A stretch of 64,000 nucleotides of DNA from Acaryochloris sp. CRU_2_0 (GTDB lineage Bacteria; Cyanobacteriota; Cyanobacteriia; Thermosynechococcales; Thermosynechococcaceae): contig JAAUOM010000008.1 in NCBI GenBank assembly GCA_012034865.1, positions 1-64,000 of the forward strand, written 5' to 3'. Under the pieces are notes generated by a model. The model was not told the DNA's origin, ran no database searches, and saw only the letters and a program-made list of their open reading frames with translations. A program made the translations under genes and the position numbers. Below are positions 23,743-31,501 of this stretch, piece after piece; the stretch's first letter is position 1; each line of letters opens with the position of its first letter.

Positions 23743-24279
23743 ATGCCGACTATCCAAAGCTGGATCGTGAATAGACTGTTTATCCCTGGATTTAGCACAC
23801 GCTTAGGTACAACATCGGAACAGTATTTGCTGCTGCGGTTTATGCAACGCACCTATACAGAACTGTATCCCGGCAATGACTATCACCATCTCCAAGGGAT
23901 TATTGATCAATATTGGTCCCCACAAACCCCTTATTGGTTAGTAGCGTCCCTCCAAAATCCTCAAGAGTTCATCGCTTGTTTATGGCTGGGAACAGCCGTG
24001 GATCAAACGACAGGAGATACCTATACCCATATTTTTATCCTTGTTGTAGCTCCTGAATATCGTCGGCAAGGATTAGGGACAGCGCTCCTACAGATGGCTG
24101 AAAGCTGGACTCACCAGCAAGGGCATCATCAAATTGGCCTACAAGTGTTTACCAATGCCCAACCTGCTTTGTCTTTGTATCAAAAGTTAGGCTACCAACC
24201 CAGATCGCTATTGTTAATGAAAGGCATGGCAAAGAACTCAGCTTCATATCCCATCCTATCGATTTCTCAAGAGTCATGA
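23743..24279 (+). CDS. GNAT-family N-acetyltransferase
   Basis: A 178-residue GNAT domain. The acetyl-CoA pyrophosphate loop is RRQGLGTALL, preceded by the strand IFILVVAPEY and followed by GLQVFTNAQPALSLYQKLGY, the usual motif B ending with YxKxGF-like residues. It transfers an acetyl group to an unknown amine. The gene converges on the nucleotidyltransferase gene, their ends overlapping by 6 bp. Confidence 0.87.
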   Translation: MPTIQSWIVNRLFIPGFSTRLGTTSEQYLLLRFMQRTYTELYPGNDYHHLQGIIDQYWSPQTPYWLVASLQNPQEFIACLWLGTAVDQTTGDTYTHIFILVVAPEYRRQGLGTALLQMAESWTHQQGHHQIGLQVFTNAQPALSLYQKLGYQPRSLLLMKGMAKNSASYPILSISQES

Positions 24280-25146
24280 TAGTCCGGCTTCAGTCATAGC
24301 TTGGACAAGCATATTAGTCAGTTCTAAGGTTTCTGCCTGCTGATCTAAATACTGAAAGTCAAGGGTTTGACCTTGCACTTTCAGTATGCCTAAGACATCT
24401 CGCCATTGTTTCTCCGATTGACTTTGTCCTCCCCAACGGAGTTTGCTTAAGATGATGTCTTCCGGTGAAGCCAGGTATAAGGTACCTCTGCCAGAAATTT
24501 CGATCGCTCGTCGTCGGTTAAATTGTGCGTGGTCGAAGTCGCTTATCCCCGCTAACATCAAGTCAGCACGAGCAATGGTTTCTTGATGGGTAATGCCTAG
24601 GGTTCGCAACTGTCCAGAACGGATCTCTTCAACCCCAGGTACATAGAATCCTTCGTGTTCTAGGCGTTGAACCATGGTATCAAGCTGGCTTAGAGAAAGT
24701 GCAATGACAATATCCAAATCGCGGGTCGTTCGGGGTTCTCCATAGGTAGCAGCGGCAACTCCCCCAGTAATGTAGTAAGGAATCTCAAGATCGGCCAAAA
24801 TGGCTTGGAGTTGAATCGCGAGTGAGATTGAGTCTTGAATCCAGGTCATTTCGCTTCCAGTCGGGATAAATTCGTGTGAATAGTCATCGTCCAGGAAGGC
24901 TTGGGAGATCGCTTGTGCCACAGCTATCTCTGAGAGGGATGGATGAGTTTGGCGCAATCCACAGATGCAAAGCTGTCTGGCTCCTCTGGTAAGAGCAGCA
25001 CTCATTTGCAGGCGATCACTATTGGTTCTCTGCCGCAAAAGAGCAAATTCATAGACATCGGTCTCAAGACTGGTGTCTAAGGCTTGGGGACGATATCCCG
25101 GTTTGACCACTGGTAAGTTTAACTGCTGTAAGGCTTGAGAATACAT
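24274..25146 (-). CDS. Fusion of a small helical domain to an AbiEii/MNT-type nucleotidyltransferase domain
   Basis: A 290-residue protein in two parts. Residues about 25-95 (LLRQRTNSDRLQMSAALTRG, CGLRQTHPSLSEIAVAQAI) resemble a short helical protein that elsewhere, from memory, is encoded just upstream of a nucleotidyltransferase gene. Residues about 105-270 form a polymerase-beta-like nucleotidyltransferase: YYITGGVAAATYGEPRTTRD then LDIVIA gives the GG and D-x-D active-site motif, and DLMLAG supplies the third acidic residue. LASPEDIILSKLRW is the usual C-terminal signature of the AbiEii-like group. Such enzymes often act in toxin-antitoxin or defence roles; here no partner gene lies beside it, perhaps because the partner is fused. 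Confidence 0.75.
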   Translation of the reverse strand: MYSQALQQLNLPVVKPGYRPQALDTSLETDVYEFALLRQRTNSDRLQMSAALTRGARQLCICGLRQTHPSLSEIAVAQAISQAFLDDDYSHEFIPTGSEMTWIQDSISLAIQLQAILADLEIPYYITGGVAAATYGEPRTTRDLDIVIALSLSQLDTMVQRLEHEGFYVPGVEEIRSGQLRTLGITHQETIARADLMLAGISDFDHAQFNRRRAIEISGRGTLYLASPEDIILSKLRWGGQSQSEKQWRDVLGILKVQGQTLDFQYLDQQAETLELTNMLVQAMTEAGLS

Positions 25147-25545: not shown

Positions 25546-25645
25546 GGCTCGGACCCATGCGATCGCAACGCCTAAATCTTGTCAGAACCGGAAGGTAGCA
25601 GCAATACGGGATGCTTGTGATAGGCGTGGACTCCGGGTCGCTTTT
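25546..25645 (+). ncRNA. ffs: Signal recognition particle RNA (4.5S type)
   Basis: The conserved SRP domain IV core is clear: TGTCAGAACCGGAAGGTAGC followed by AGCAATACGGGATGC. Flanking strands pair to form the long hairpin (GACCC with GGGTC; ACGCCT with AGGCGT). The T run CTTTTG at the 3' end fits termination. It binds Ffh and targets ribosomes making membrane proteins. The ends are approximate. An 8-bp HIP1 site (25559-25566) lies inside the 5' arm. Confidence 0.9.
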
Positions 25646-25750
25646 GTATAGAGATACATTAGGGTGTAAAGCCAGACATCAACCTTGCCCGCTTCTACTA
25701 CAAACCCCTAATCACTTCCCAACCAGCTTTGGATATCAAAAGCCCGAGTC

Positions 25751-26113
25751 ATGAACGATCTTCCTGATTTTTTCAAAAAAGCCTTTTACCTTGGGCTTGG
25801 TGTCGCCTCCTATGCAGGGGAGCAAGCTGGCAACACAGTGGTTGAACTGCAAGAGCGAGCCCAACAACTCGCCAATGAAATGATCCGCCGTGGTGAAATA
25901 AGTACTGAAGAAGCCAATCAGTGGCTCAAGCAATTTAACCCTAAACCCACGCCCGTCTCTGTAGAAGAAGTCCCTTACCCTGACCATCCCCAGACCATTG
26001 AGCTGATCTCAGGGGATGAAGAGGATACCCCTTCTACAGATGAAGATCTTCATACACAGGTTGCTGAGCTAGAGAAAGAGCTACGCCGTTTACAGGATGA
26101 AGAGATCGGTTAA
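25751..26113 (+). CDS. Phasin-like small helical protein
   Basis: A 120-residue protein. The N-terminal 60 residues are amphipathic helix (FFKKAFYLGLGVASYAGEQA, then RAQQLANEMIRRGEISTEEA), like phasin-family polyhydroxyalkanoate regulators. A Pro-rich linker and an acidic coiled-coil segment (LHTQVAELEKELRRLQDEE) follow. It is a distant paralogue of the 107-residue protein at 58319-58642, sharing the same helix-then-coiled-coil layout. It begins about 105 bp after the SRP RNA. Whether it coats granules or is a general scaffold is unknown. Confidence 0.7.
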   Translation: MNDLPDFFKKAFYLGLGVASYAGEQAGNTVVELQERAQQLANEMIRRGEISTEEANQWLKQFNPKPTPVSVEEVPYPDHPQTIELISGDEEDTPSTDEDLHTQVAELEKELRRLQDEEIG

Positions 26114-26161
26114 CACTCAAACCTAACAGCCATTAACGATTACCAAAAGACCTTATTAAGC

Positions 26162-26512
26162 ATGAATGGGTTGCCTAACGATATTCAGAAGATGTTGGCA
26201 CACGCTGCTGTGCAAACTGAACAATTTTTAGATGAAGTTACCGATGCCCTTGATCAAACTCTGATCGAGGTTGAACAAAGCCTAGACGATCTCCTCAGTC
26301 CTCTTGTCGCTGACTTATTGGCATTTGAGCATACCGTCGAAGAACTTGCTTATCCCCTCAGTCAAAGGATTAATCCATTATTAGATCAACAGCCAGCCTG
26401 TATAGGCTGTCACCATTACCATGGCAAAACCTATGGCGATAGCTTCTTAGTTTGTGCCATGCACCCCTATGGTTCATCAATGTCCTCTTGTCCAGATTGG
26501 GAATCCTGTTAG
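26162..26512 (+). CDS. Conserved Cys-motif protein, function unknown
   Basis: A 116-residue protein. The first 80 residues are acidic amphipathic helix (TEQFLDEVTDALDQTLIEVE). The C-terminus carries a compact Cys/His cluster: CIGCHHYHG, CAMHPYG and SCPDWESC, enough for a zinc or iron-sulfur site. Proteins ending in the pattern CxGCxxYHG, CxxHPYG, CPDWE are widespread in cyanobacteria without a known role. It lies 48 bp after the phasin-like gene and is probably co-transcribed. Confidence 0.7.
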   Translation: MNGLPNDIQKMLAHAAVQTEQFLDEVTDALDQTLIEVEQSLDDLLSPLVADLLAFEHTVEELAYPLSQRINPLLDQQPACIGCHHYHGKTYGDSFLVCAMHPYGSSMSSCPDWESC

Positions 26513-27075
<563 letters not shown>

Positions 27076-27130
27076 CATCTTTGCTATCATCATCAGTCTT
27101 GAGTCATTTTTGCTGTGTTGCATTTGAGAA

Positions 27131-27159
27131 AAGAGGGAGCTAATGCTTCCTCTTTTTTT
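27131..27159 (+). terminator. Rho-independent terminator after psaC
   Basis: AAGAGGGAGC (27131-27140) pairs with GCTTCCTCTT over a TAAT loop, one G-T pair included, and is followed directly by a T run to 27159. It lies about 55 bp past the psaC stop. Confidence 0.85.
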
Positions 27160-27198
27160 AGAGACATTGGATGTCGTCATTTTTCCCTGGCAAGAGTT

Positions 27199-27417
27199 AT
27201 GGGTCAATCAATCATCATCTGGGTTAATGAACAACTGGATCCTACTGGTTTACTCTACGCCTGTATTGCCTGCTGCGATCAACAACAGGCTCAAGCTTGT
27301 CACGAGTCTTTTGAACAAAATTTGACGAACCATCAAAAGGCAGCAGGATGGGTAGCACGACTGAGAACCGTAGAATCCTGGGATGATGTGCCTGCCTCTG
27401 CCTTGAAACTCAGTTAG
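27199..27417 (+). CDS. Conserved hypothetical protein, 72 residues
   Basis: From the ATG at 27199 the protein begins MGQSIIIWVNEQLDPTGLLY and contains ACIACCDQQQAQAC, then WVARLRTVESWDDVPASAL. Three Cys residues cluster in CIACC and QAC. A longer frame from 27115 crosses the psaC terminator and has odd composition, so it is rejected. A strong ribosome site is not obvious (AAGAG before the ATG). The function is unknown; I believe similar small proteins occur in other cyanobacteria. Confidence 0.6.
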   Translation: MGQSIIIWVNEQLDPTGLLYACIACCDQQQAQACHESFEQNLTNHQKAAGWVARLRTVESWDDVPASALKLS

Positions 27418-27620
27418 TGTAGTTGTGATGACAGATAATACTTTTAATTCGTAAAGCTTTGCTGTTAAATTATTAGCCTAACTGGGTTCTACTGAATCAT
27501 AACCACAACTTTAAAACACTGCCAACCATCATATAGTTCTCTGTACTAATAGCGGAGAGCTAGCCGCCTAATCTAGGCTGAGATTACAATAGTAAAGTTT
27601 CTTGTAGAAAAAACAGGTTG

Positions 27621-28418
27621 ATGTATTTACCTGAGTTTGAGCGTGTCATTTACAGTCGCAATCCCCTTATCCAAGTTGCGTGTCAATTGCGGTTCCCAGT
27701 CATCCTTAAGATCTCTCATCAAGAGCCAGTTGAATTTCAAGATGAGATTAGATCCCAGTACCCGCTGTTTGAAAGTATGCAACCACAATTTCCATCTGAA
27801 GTTTCTCAAGTCATTCAGCAATTTGGCTTACCGCTGCCGAGAGATTTATCCTATAGCTTTAAATCTGAGGATCAGCGCTGGCAGTTATCTATTAGTAAAG
27901 ATTTTATTAGTCTGAATACATCTGTCTACGAAAGGTATGAACAGTTTGAACAGCGTTTCAATGAAGCCGTAACGATATTTAAACGAATATACCAACCATC
28001 TTTCTACACCAGAATTGGACTTCAGTATCAAGACTTGATTATCCGCTCCAAATTGGGACTTGAAGATAAAGAGTGGTCAGATCTCTTGACAAGACATGTT
28101 GCTGCCGAACTATACAATTCAGAGCTTGCACCTTCAATTGAATCCATAATAAAGAACTTGATTTTAAAATTAGAATATGGTCAAGTTAACTTCAAGCATG
28201 GACTTGTTACCGTAAAAGACCCAGAAAGCAATAGTGGTGATTTAGCTTATTTACTGGATGCCGATTTTTATACAGAGCAAAAAGTAGAGAGGGATGAAGA
28301 TGTCTGGAGCATACTTAAGCACTTTAACCAATCAGCCGGAAAACTTTTCAGATGGAGTATCACAGATACGCTTCATATTGCCATGGAACCTCAAACCGTT
28401 GACATCACCGAGCTATAG
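27621..28418 (+). CDS. TIGR04255 family protein
   Basis: A 265-residue protein with the family N-terminus FERVIYSRNPLIQVACQLRF (pattern near ER-V-Y-x2-NPL-x-E/Q-V-x-CQLRF). Later conserved parts are FYTRIGLQYQDLIIR, VNFKHGLVTV and, near the end, FRWSITDTLHIAMEP. No catalytic motif is visible. Genes of this family are sporadically distributed in bacteria, which suggests horizontal movement (family knowledge). The start is the ATG at 27621. The next gene probably begins at TTG 28399, overlapping this one by 20 bp, so translation may be coupled. Base composition is visibly A/T-richer than the neighbours. Confidence 0.8.
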   Translation: MYLPEFERVIYSRNPLIQVACQLRFPVILKISHQEPVEFQDEIRSQYPLFESMQPQFPSEVSQVIQQFGLPLPRDLSYSFKSEDQRWQLSISKDFISLNTSVYERYEQFEQRFNEAVTIFKRIYQPSFYTRIGLQYQDLIIRSKLGLEDKEWSDLLTRHVAAELYNSELAPSIESIIKNLILKLEYGQVNFKHGLVTVKDPESNSGDLAYLLDADFYTEQKVERDEDVWSILKHFNQSAGKLFRWSITDTLHIAMEPQTVDITEL

Positions 28419-28779
28419 TCAGATTTCAGCAAGGACTTCTGCAAATAATTCTGTCTTAGATAGAGAGACTGGAAGAACATTGGTCATTCAACATCCCGTT
28501 GATGTGGAGATGTCTGAGTCTTCTTTATTTTTCAGAATTGACTGGGATGGACTGACACAGAATAAGGTGATTTTGTTGCTAAAATGCTTAGTCTATCTCC
28601 AATCTCTATCAGCTCTGTCGGAAGCTGCTTTAGAAGAAGCCGCTGATGAACTTGAAGGAATTGCTAATTTTCACTCAGATCGCTTGCCCACCAATAACTT
28701 ACCTAGTATTCCAGTTGCTACTATCAAAGGTAAATTAAGATCGACACAAGTTAGACCACCCATTGTTTTGGAATCATAG
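28399..28779 (+). CDS. Small accessory protein of the TIGR04255 cassette, unknown
   Basis: A 126-residue protein if begun at the TTG (28399), reading MTSPSYSQISARTSANNSVL. Residues about 25-45 are LVIQHPVDVEMSESSLFF; a Leu-rich helical part follows (VILLLKCLVYLQSLSALSEA, then ALEEAADELEGIANF) and a short basic Pro-containing tail. A longer frame from 28294 reads out of phase through the previous gene and is rejected. I do not recognise the family. It lies between the TIGR04255 gene and the next gene on the same strand, so it is taken as the middle gene of a three-gene operon. Confidence 0.6.
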   Translation: MTSPSYSQISARTSANNSVLDRETGRTLVIQHPVDVEMSESSLFFRIDWDGLTQNKVILLLKCLVYLQSLSALSEAALEEAADELEGIANFHSDRLPTNNLPSIPVATIKGKLRSTQVRPPIVLES

Positions 28780-28802
28780 CTTGTCTAAATAGTAGTTGAT
28801 AC

Positions 28803-29396
28803 ATGAAAAAACAAGCTATCTACCGACCATCAGATAAAAATACTTCTCTAAGACAAGGAGAAATACTAACAGATGTAGTTCAGTATAATCCCGTTATTGC
28901 TGAATCTTTACTAGAGGTAGAGGAGCTGCCTTATCAGCAAATTATTCATCCTTATGTAATTATTGTTACCCAAGACTGTGATTTAGATTGGGATTATCGA
29001 GCTAGACAGAGTGCAGAGTCGCAGCCATCAAAGCTTTTAAACTCTATAATTTTGTGTGAAATCACAACAGCACAAGAGATTAGAAATACAGCAGATAATA
29101 TGAATAGAAAAGAATGGGATCTTATTAAGTCTCATCGTCATGAAAGGTTCTACTTTTTTGAAAGGATTCCTCTTGAACGTGAGTTGGAAGAGATTGGTTT
29201 ACCTGAGTTGACGGCTGACTTTAAAAAAGTTTTTGGTGTAGATGCGGCAAGTTTGTATCGTCAACTTGACCTGGGCATGGCAAAACGACGGACAGTCTTA
29301 TCCAGTCCCTACTTAGAGCATTTTTCCAGGCGATACTACAGTTTTCATGGCAGGGTTGCATTGCCCTTTCAATATGAAAGTGAACAAGGAGGTTAA
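28803..29396 (+). CDS. Unrecognised protein with a TQDCDLDWD motif
   Basis: A 197-residue protein. It begins KKQAIYRPSDKNTSLRQGE, then YVIIVTQDCDLDWDYRAR, a beta strand leading into an acidic/Cys motif (QDCDLDWD) that could bind metal or act in catalysis. Later parts are RHERFYFFERIPLE and a basic/aromatic end (LEHFSRRYYSFHGRVALP). A protein with an IVTQ/VVSQxCDL strand is seen from time to time in accessory regions, but I cannot name a family. It starts 23 bp after the previous gene. Its stop lies inside the ribosome site of speA. Confidence 0.65.
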   Translation: MKKQAIYRPSDKNTSLRQGEILTDVVQYNPVIAESLLEVEELPYQQIIHPYVIIVTQDCDLDWDYRARQSAESQPSKLLNSIILCEITTAQEIRNTADNMNRKEWDLIKSHRHERFYFFERIPLERELEEIGLPELTADFKKVFGVDAASLYRQLDLGMAKRRTVLSSPYLEHFSRRYYSFHGRVALPFQYESEQGG

Positions 29397-29401
29397 TACT
29401 C

Positions 29402-31501
29402 TTGGAGATTAATCAGCCACAGACTAATCCACTAGAACAACTAGAAGCTAGTATTCAGAATCAAGAGTCAAGGTTAGCGGCAGATAGTCGGCTGCCTAAG
29501 TCAGAGAATAGTCCCTTTACTAGTAATGGAAAAACTCAGCCTGCACTACAAACAGTCTGGTCTGTGGAGGAGAGTGAAAAACTCTATCGAATTCGGGGTT
29601 GGGGGGAACCTTATTTTTCTGTTAATGCTGCTGGGCATGTGACGGTGGCTCCCAAGGGCGATCGCGGCGGCTCTTTAGACCTTTACGATCTGGTGCAATC
29701 GCTACAACAACGGGATATCCATGCCCCTTTGCTGATCCGATTTTCCGATATTTTGGCAGATCGGATTGAACGATTGAATGCTTGTTTTGCTAAGGCGATC
29801 GCCCGCTACAACTATTCTGGCCGTTATAAGGGTGTCTTCCCGGTCAAGTGCAATCAACAACGCCATCTGGTCGAAGACCTCGTGCGCTTTGGTCAACCCC
29901 ACCAATTTGGCCTAGAGGCTGGCTCTAAGCCAGAGTTATTGATTGCGATCGCCACCCTTAACACCCCAGGGGCTTTGCTGATCTGTAATGGTTACAAAGA
30001 TTTGGACTATGTGGAGACAGCCATGCTCTCTCAGCGGCTGGGGCATCAGTCGATTCTTGTGATTGAGCAACCAGAAGAAGTAAACCTGGTGATCGAAGCC
30101 AGTCATGCTTTGCAGATTCAGCCGATTTTAGGGATTCGTGCCAAGCTCAGCGCCAAAGGGATTGGCCGCTGGGGGAATAGTGCTGGCGATCGCGCCAAAT
30201 TTGGCCTCACCATTCCCGAAGTTGTTGTTGCCGTTGAACAACTGCGCGAGGCGGGTCTGTTAGCCGCTTTGCAATTGTTGCACTTCCATATTGGTTCGCA
30301 AATCTCAGCTATTAGCGTCATCAAAGATGCCCTGCGAGAAGCCAGTCAAATCTATGTGGAACTCGCCCGTTTAGGTGCAAATATGCAATTCTTAGACGTG
30401 GGAGGCGGCTTAGGGGTAGATTACGACGGCTCTAAGAGTAATTCAGCGGCCTCCAAAAACTACAACATGCAAAACTATGCCAATGATGTGGTTGCCGAAG
30501 TCAAAGAAGCTTGTGTAGAAGCGAATCTACCCGTACCCACCTTAATAAGTGAAAGTGGGCGAGCCATCGCATCTCATCAGTCCGTTTTAATTATGAATGT
30601 CCTCGGCAGCAGCGAAGCCCAAGACTTGGCTCCTGAACCTGCCCAAGCCGAGGATCATCTGATTATTCGCAATCTCTACGAAACTTACCAGTCCATTGAT
30701 CCAAGCAATTACCAAGAAGCCTATCACGATGCTTTGCAGTTCAAAGAAGAAGCGGTCAGTTTATTTGGATTTGGCTATTTGAGCCTGAAAGAACGGGCTA
30801 GGATTGAGGGACTTTGTGGTGCCTGTTGTGCCAAGATATTAGCGATCGCCCGCCAAGATGACGATGTTGCCGATGATCTTGAAGATCTAGAACGGCGGAT
30901 GGCGTCCCTCTACTACACCAACCTCTCGGTTTTTCAATCCGCTCCAGATACCTGGGCCATTGATCAGCTATTCCCGATTATGCCCATTCATCGCCTCAAT
31001 GAAGAACCGACTCAACGCGGTACCCTCGTCGATCTCACCTGTGATAGCGATGGCAAAATTAACCGATTTATTCACTCTCGTGACACCAAACCAATTCTAG
31101 AGTTGCACCCCCTCAAACCCAATGAACCTTACTATCTCGGTATGTTCTTAAATGGTGCCTACCAGGAGGTAATGGGGAATCTGCACAATCTCTTCGGTGA
31201 CACTAACGTTGTCCATATTGACCTGACGCCTATGGGATATGACATTGCCCATGTGGTTAAAGGTGACACCATCCAAGAAGTTCTGGGATATGTCCAATAT
31301 GATACTGATGATCTGATTGAAGAAATTCGCAAGCAGTCGGAAGTCGCCTTACAAAAGCAACAGATCACGTTGCCAGAAGCGCAGCTCCTTTTGAAAAATT
31401 ATGAGCGTAGTTTAAGAAGCTATACCTACCTAACCTCAGTTCGGGTTAAGCCGGAGGCTAAAACCTCCACTGCAAATAGCTTGAGCCAAGCAACCAGTTA
31501 G
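29402..31501 (+). CDS. speA: Biosynthetic arginine decarboxylase
   Basis: A 699-residue PLP enzyme that converts arginine to agmatine, the first step to putrescine and spermidine. The PLP lysine lies in GVFPVKCNQQ near residue 148. LHFHIGSQI, LDVGGGLGVDYDG and ESGRAIASHQSVLI follow, and the C-terminal catalytic Cys is in LCGACCAKI, SDGKINRF near the end. The start is TTG at 29402: AAGGAGG (29386-29392) lies 9 nt before it. That ribosome site overlaps the stop of the upstream gene, so speA may be read through from the accessory cassette. About 50 residues at the N-terminus are poorly conserved. Confidence 0.95.
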   Translation: MEINQPQTNPLEQLEASIQNQESRLAADSRLPKSENSPFTSNGKTQPALQTVWSVEESEKLYRIRGWGEPYFSVNAAGHVTVAPKGDRGGSLDLYDLVQSLQQRDIHAPLLIRFSDILADRIERLNACFAKAIARYNYSGRYKGVFPVKCNQQRHLVEDLVRFGQPHQFGLEAGSKPELLIAIATLNTPGALLICNGYKDLDYVETAMLSQRLGHQSILVIEQPEEVNLVIEASHALQIQPILGIRAKLSAKGIGRWGNSAGDRAKFGLTIPEVVVAVEQLREAGLLAALQLLHFHIGSQISAISVIKDALREASQIYVELARLGANMQFLDVGGGLGVDYDGSKSNSAASKNYNMQNYANDVVAEVKEACVEANLPVPTLISESGRAIASHQSVLIMNVLGSSEAQDLAPEPAQAEDHLIIRNLYETYQSIDPSNYQEAYHDALQFKEEAVSLFGFGYLSLKERARIEGLCGACCAKILAIARQDDDVADDLEDLERRMASLYYTNLSVFQSAPDTWAIDQLFPIMPIHRLNEEPTQRGTLVDLTCDSDGKINRFIHSRDTKPILELHPLKPNEPYYLGMFLNGAYQEVMGNLHNLFGDTNVVHIDLTPMGYDIAHVVKGDTIQEVLGYVQYDTDDLIEEIRKQSEVALQKQQITLPEAQLLLKNYERSLRSYTYLTSVRVKPEAKTSTANSLSQATS

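Follow-up and report, generated by a model that had tools for sequence, protein, structure and literature searches.

Among the known systems that come closest to the locus reported here are the TAC systems, in which SecB-like chaperones guard the antitoxins of HigBA, HicAB or MqsRA (PMC5105189). In one of these, CmdTAC, a phage capsid protein removes the chaperone and the toxin is freed (PMC11618068). We have analysed a stretch of 64,000 nucleotides from contig JAAUOM010000008.1 of Acaryochloris sp. CRU_2_0 (the window), which contains a cassette of three genes, here called T, X and Y. As in TAC, including HigBA1-SecBTA of M. tuberculosis and CmdTAC, there is a three-gene operon in which a constant third protein accompanies pairs of several families, toxin-antitoxin (TA) pairs in TAC and, judging by predicted folds, putative TA pairs here, and pairs of related type are also met without the third protein. 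The cassette differs in that the third protein belongs to TIGR04255, is encoded first in the operon and has no SecB match, and in that the extension of X is N-terminal and lies inside the T gene, whereas in TAC it is C-terminal. By analogy we propose that the cassette works like TAC but is not a member of it, because T is not SecB-like. Such a design, unrelated to SecB, would be a second way to put many TA pairs under one controlling protein.

T is a member of the NCBIfam family TIGR04255 (sporadTIGR04255), which has no assigned function. A search of openly accessible papers for TIGR04255 by that name found no mention of it, and its three-gene module is described here.

Insertion of a three-gene cassette between psaC and speA

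There are three tight ORFs in one direction at 27621-29396 (Table 1). An earlier note on this DNA had described three co-directional genes with a 23-nt gap between the second and third; all three ORFs are present and the X-Y spacing is indeed 23 nt. The same note had called the cassette more A/T-rich than its surroundings, and the figures agree: its GC content is 38.7% compared with 48.0% for the window (z about -4), and Y has the lowest GC3 among the ORFs of at least 150 aa in the window. When windows of cassette size were slid across the stretch, only 0.7% had a GC content this low, and all of those with 41% GC or less overlap the cassette. The lack of HIP1 sites, which had been judged weak evidence, carries no weight. 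The HIP1-free stretch from 25567 to 29657 does exist, yet two such gaps in the window are longer (6060 and 4447 nt, against 4099 nt), so we rejected HIP1 absence as an uninformative mark of foreign DNA.

Table 1. Features of the cassette and of the segment that contains it (window coordinates)
Feature	Position	Strand	Description
Inserted segment	27418-29401	+	From the stop of orf100 (27417) to the start of speA (29402)
Left spacer of insertion	27418-27620	+	GC 35%; not in the empty sites of relatives
T	27621-28418	+	265 aa; TIGR04255 family; stands first in the module and does not vary
X	28294-28779	+	159-161 aa; ATG 28294 or 28300; predicted antitoxin
Y	28803-29396	+	197 aa; predicted toxin/effector; motif LRQGE...TQDCDLDWD

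The cassette has been inserted at this site. Five of six same-genus genomes have psaC, a small ORF and speA together, the last two approximately 50 bp apart; in the sixth (L140) speA is in a different context. In the window the small ORF between psaC and speA (27115-27417) is separated from speA by approximately 1984 bp. The T of the window adjoins that of Amazonocrinis (Nostocales) in the T tree, with 78% identity, while a same-genus genome (G222) that carries the cassette at another place has a T only 63% identical to it. The horizontal acquisition proposed earlier is thus upheld by the empty site in five sister genomes, by the odd composition and by a nearest relative that belongs to the Nostocales and not to the same genus. 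The only candidate target-site duplication is a 7-bp TAATACT at 27436 and 29394, and chance may give as much. The left spacer is probably the promoter region of the cassette; a sigma-70-like match within it (27510-27537) is weak and not above chance. Further upstream in the window, on the minus strand (24274-25146), there is a nucleotidyltransferase-like gene with weak NTP_transf_5 and AbiEii matches. The genome also has a second TIGR04255 copy (L002; G000:C106:7217-7963), which contains an in-frame TAG and lies at a contig end.

The low GC content and sporadic distribution, together with the in-frame stop in the other T copy of the genome, could mean that the cassette is a decaying or neutral insertion that is functionless in this genome. 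We regard this as very improbable, given that the three frames are intact, their motifs are conserved and T and Y are 66-80% identical to relatives in other cyanobacterial orders.

TIGR04255 as the constant gene ahead of exchangeable pairs

A profile of Y was used to scan 84,980 species genomes. This gave 31 loci, of which 22 are cyanobacterial (some being records also found through the TIGR04255 search) and nine are from Acidobacteriota, Chloroflexota and Planctomycetota. T lies upstream of X-Y wherever the contig extends far enough, with two exceptions: in Dulcicalothrix and Calothrix (L110:7289-8594 and L111:7477-8591) an X-Y pair of the same class is found without T, directly after tRNA-Gly (TCC), and its X is short and begins at the conserved core. 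The cassette sites that were inspected are all different and mostly amid housekeeping genes. No phage-borne copies of the Y class of the window were found in viral contigs. The suggestion that the three products act together is strongly supported as far as the unit is concerned, since genomes of four phyla share the gene order and the types of X and Y co-segregate; the possibility that the three genes never co-occur elsewhere can be set aside.

T is found in many other settings. TIGR04255 is present in 57 of the 291 genomes sampled from the class to which the organism belongs. We examined 65 cyanobacterial T places, five of which were lost to contig ends or fragments, and at 58 of the 60 testable loci T is followed by two more tight co-directional genes (X and Y). 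In the Acidobacteriota, which were sampled by T only and regardless of Y, nearly all above-cut-off T places with enough contig head a three-gene operon, and the arrangement is also seen in most plasmid and some phage records. The downstream genes form about ten co-inherited pair types: X and Y, when grouped separately, fall into nearly the same partition (clusters of 18, 13, 8, 4, 3, 3 and so on). The T tree follows the class of the partners yet requires at least 18 partner changes; therefore T is the constant member and X-Y pairs are exchanged behind it. The three-gene unit is both conserved and mobile, and TIGR04255 apparently marks a widespread, undescribed kind of three-gene operon. The family is common, and this operon context gives it a function that can be tested. 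The swappable effector pairs, in turn, predict that a number of toxin and antitoxin families are still to be recognised.

Start codon of X

The second gene had been placed at TTG 28399, with a 20-nt overlap with T. This is probably wrong; ATG 28294 or 28300, which lies 119-125 nt inside T, is better supported and is probably the start of X. The ATG codons are preceded by GAGAGG, and with their use about 40 codons at the beginning of X would overlap T, read in the +1 frame. The window's clade has 33 T genes, drawn from Cyanobacteria, Acidobacteriota, Chloroflexota and Planctomycetota; 31 of them have an ATG at the equivalent place or within a few codons of it, from which the X frame stays open until T ends. 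If the genes are re-coded synonymously, this arrangement is expected in 2-60% of the draws for a given gene, usually in 5-30%. In L094, L097 and L112 the internal ATG is the only start able to encode the conserved beginning of X, and it is kept in T genes that are followed by X and Y of other classes (L010 and L041). An internal ATG is also found on two viral contigs (L218 and L220), and in Rhizobium the public annotation calls X with a 104-nt overlap.

Synonymous divergence is not suppressed in the T/X overlap (0.42 vs 0.44) and the amino acids of the overlapping N-terminus of X may for this reason be of little importance. A role of the overlap in translational coupling is as likely as a role in the protein.

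Predicted proteins and proposed mechanism

T matches TIGR04255 with 145.9 bits (cut-off 30) over residues 11-252 of 265, in agreement with the earlier assignment. The structural model of T is confident (pLDDT 88.8, pTM 0.84) and predicts a two-lobed alpha/beta protein. The fold search returned no confident relative for T; the best matches, to a TBP-like saddle or to guanidino kinases, stay below TM 0.45, and there is one unnamed viral protein with TM 0.46-0.58. We keep the TBP-like character of the predicted fold as a weak resemblance. Two other candidates were rejected: a sequence match to Sp-100 (E 2e-4), which spans 60 residues and is not meaningful, and a SecB-like chaperone, as SecB did not appear among the matches listed by the profile and fold searches.

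The model of Y (pLDDT 88.3, pTM 0.83) was compared with the PDB using Foldseek. The best 50 matches are MazF-type toxins (prob 0.98-1.00, with 1.00 for the top match), with TM values of 0.56-0.70 by target length and 0.35-0.44 by query length, the latter being lower because Y is longer than MazF. This confident model therefore predicts a MazF/PemK-like fold for Y. The relation rests on the predicted fold because sequence comparison finds nothing: none of the 31 Y members matches the PemK profile (PF02452) at E values up to 5, and hhalign between Y and the PemK proteins of these genomes gave a probability of 0.2. A relation to PemK at the profile level was thus looked for and not found. More generally, X and Y of the window gave nothing reliable in Pfam, NCBIfam, PADLOC, PHROGs or PDB sequence searches.

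Alignment shows that R17, Q18, E20, Q57-D58-C59-D60-L61-D62-W63-D64, R68 and C85, among others, are kept across phyla. Judged by strand order, without superposition, His49-Pro50 stands in place of the Arg-Pro of MazF and a variable residue stands at the place of Thr, so the catalytic Arg and Thr of MazF seem not to be conserved in Y. The cassette thus resembles MazEF/PemIK in the predicted fold of Y and in that X is small, encoded alongside Y and conserved at its C-terminal tail, but Y has no detected sequence relation to those toxins, has apparently not kept the catalytic residues and has a new invariant motif (QDCDLDWD), the X of the window has no recognised DNA-binding domain and there is a constant third gene. 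X of the window's class has a conserved helical core, and its tail (RPPIVLE or similar) is kept in most members across phyla, as would be expected of the tail of an antitoxin.

An altered motif, T[Q/H/N]xCD, is conserved in Y and common to several other Y classes, which keep a core of QG(D/E) ... T(Q/H/N)xCD; the X paired with a QxCD-type Y often bears an Xre-like HTH. Profile comparison links two other Y classes to that of the window (90% and 96%) and two further classes to each other (99.6%), while the QTCDI class compared directly with the window's class reaches only 10%. Three other Y are PIN domains, above the Pfam cut-off. Two are weakly HicA-like, one with an E value of 0.038, a match that does not reach the curated cut-off. 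The likeness to VapBC and HicAB is therefore to the Y of other TIGR04255 operons and not to the window's class. No recognised toxin fold was found for Y of the ARYxLQSS and L010 classes or for the peptidase-like Y.

Y may carry out a different chemistry, given its invariant Cys/Asp motif and the apparent loss of the catalytic residues of MazF, and the TBP-like look of T hints weakly that it binds a ligand or nucleic acid. These points are consistent with an ordinary regulatory or metabolic operon, in which T and X would be ligand-binding or regulatory and Y an enzyme with an SH3-like barrel. Such an operon seems to us distinctly improbable: the distribution of the cassette is sporadic and independent of position, its neighbours show no pathway link and there are PIN domains among the partner pairs.

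On balance, we think that the cassette is rather more probably than otherwise a horizontally acquired tripartite toxin-antitoxin-like operon, in which T is a partner or sensor for X and Y is the effector. The swappable pairs with PIN and MazF-fold members, the lone X-Y pairs, the HTH in some X and the tight coupling all point to TA pairs with a third controller. The X-Y pairs without T in L110 and L111 fit the idea of a core pair, X-Y, to which T is an addition. Against this reading stand the failure to find a sequence relation to PemK/MazF, the apparent change of the catalytic Arg and Thr, the Y classes with no recognised toxin fold, the synonymous divergence in the T/X overlap and a T that resembles no known chaperone. 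We infer that Y is toxic and that X, made together with it, is its antitoxin. Free Y, a MazF-fold effector, would most likely harm RNA or translation. T would be a third member devoted to the pair: it would bind or stabilise X, or X in complex with Y, and serve as the sensor. Some trigger, stress or infection for instance, would remove T; X would then fail and Y would arrest the cell. In this way the cassette may switch the cell off when it is stressed or attacked by phage.

Another reading makes the cassette an anti-phage system and not a classical TA system, with T recognising a phage component and handing it to an X-Y pair that is kept inactive by assembly and not by a labile antitoxin. A constant T with varying effector pairs would be as in known modular defence systems, the effectors include PIN and MazF-like proteins, and the operons are mobile, being found on plasmids and some viral contigs. 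One locus lies beside Type I R-M, and another has as its neighbour a DNA-methylase gene, judged by eye to be DUF1156-like. We consider this reading unlikely, although worth keeping in mind. X-Y can stand alone without T, and no PADLOC model fits: there is a single match, for Y (E 0.034), and none for T or X. Nor was clustering in defence islands found. The neighbours are mostly housekeeping genes, and only three of the 133 are matched by Type I R-M models; no Type I R-M is among the top families listed for random control loci. In Pseudanabaenaceae LEGE 13415 (L096:2074-6658) HsdS and HsdR are directly upstream of the cassette. Three R-M matches and one such locus are too little for an island claim, and a defence role is plausible only by analogy. 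The stress or defence role put forward in the earlier note accordingly loses its defence-island part and is otherwise still conjectural, sharpened here to the tripartite TA-like reading.

It is quite possible, if somewhat short of probable, that TIGR04255 represents a large unrecognised class of tripartite defence or addiction operons, in which one sensor-like protein controls many unrelated TA pairs (MazF-fold, PIN, HicA-like, peptidase-like and several new folds) and, in one clade, the start codon of the antitoxin overlaps the end of the sensor gene by some 120 nt.

The commonest second pair type is that of L053, L059, L075 and ten more. Its X has an NWDGY...PDG...W motif and is partnered by a Y of 130-140 aa (ARYxLQSS), and neither has a Pfam match. 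In a Rhizobium plasmid (L124:3995-6168) and two viral contigs (L219 and L220) Y looks like an NlpC/P60-type peptidase (NHVG..., GLTCA), and in L124 and L220 X has the same long overlap with T.
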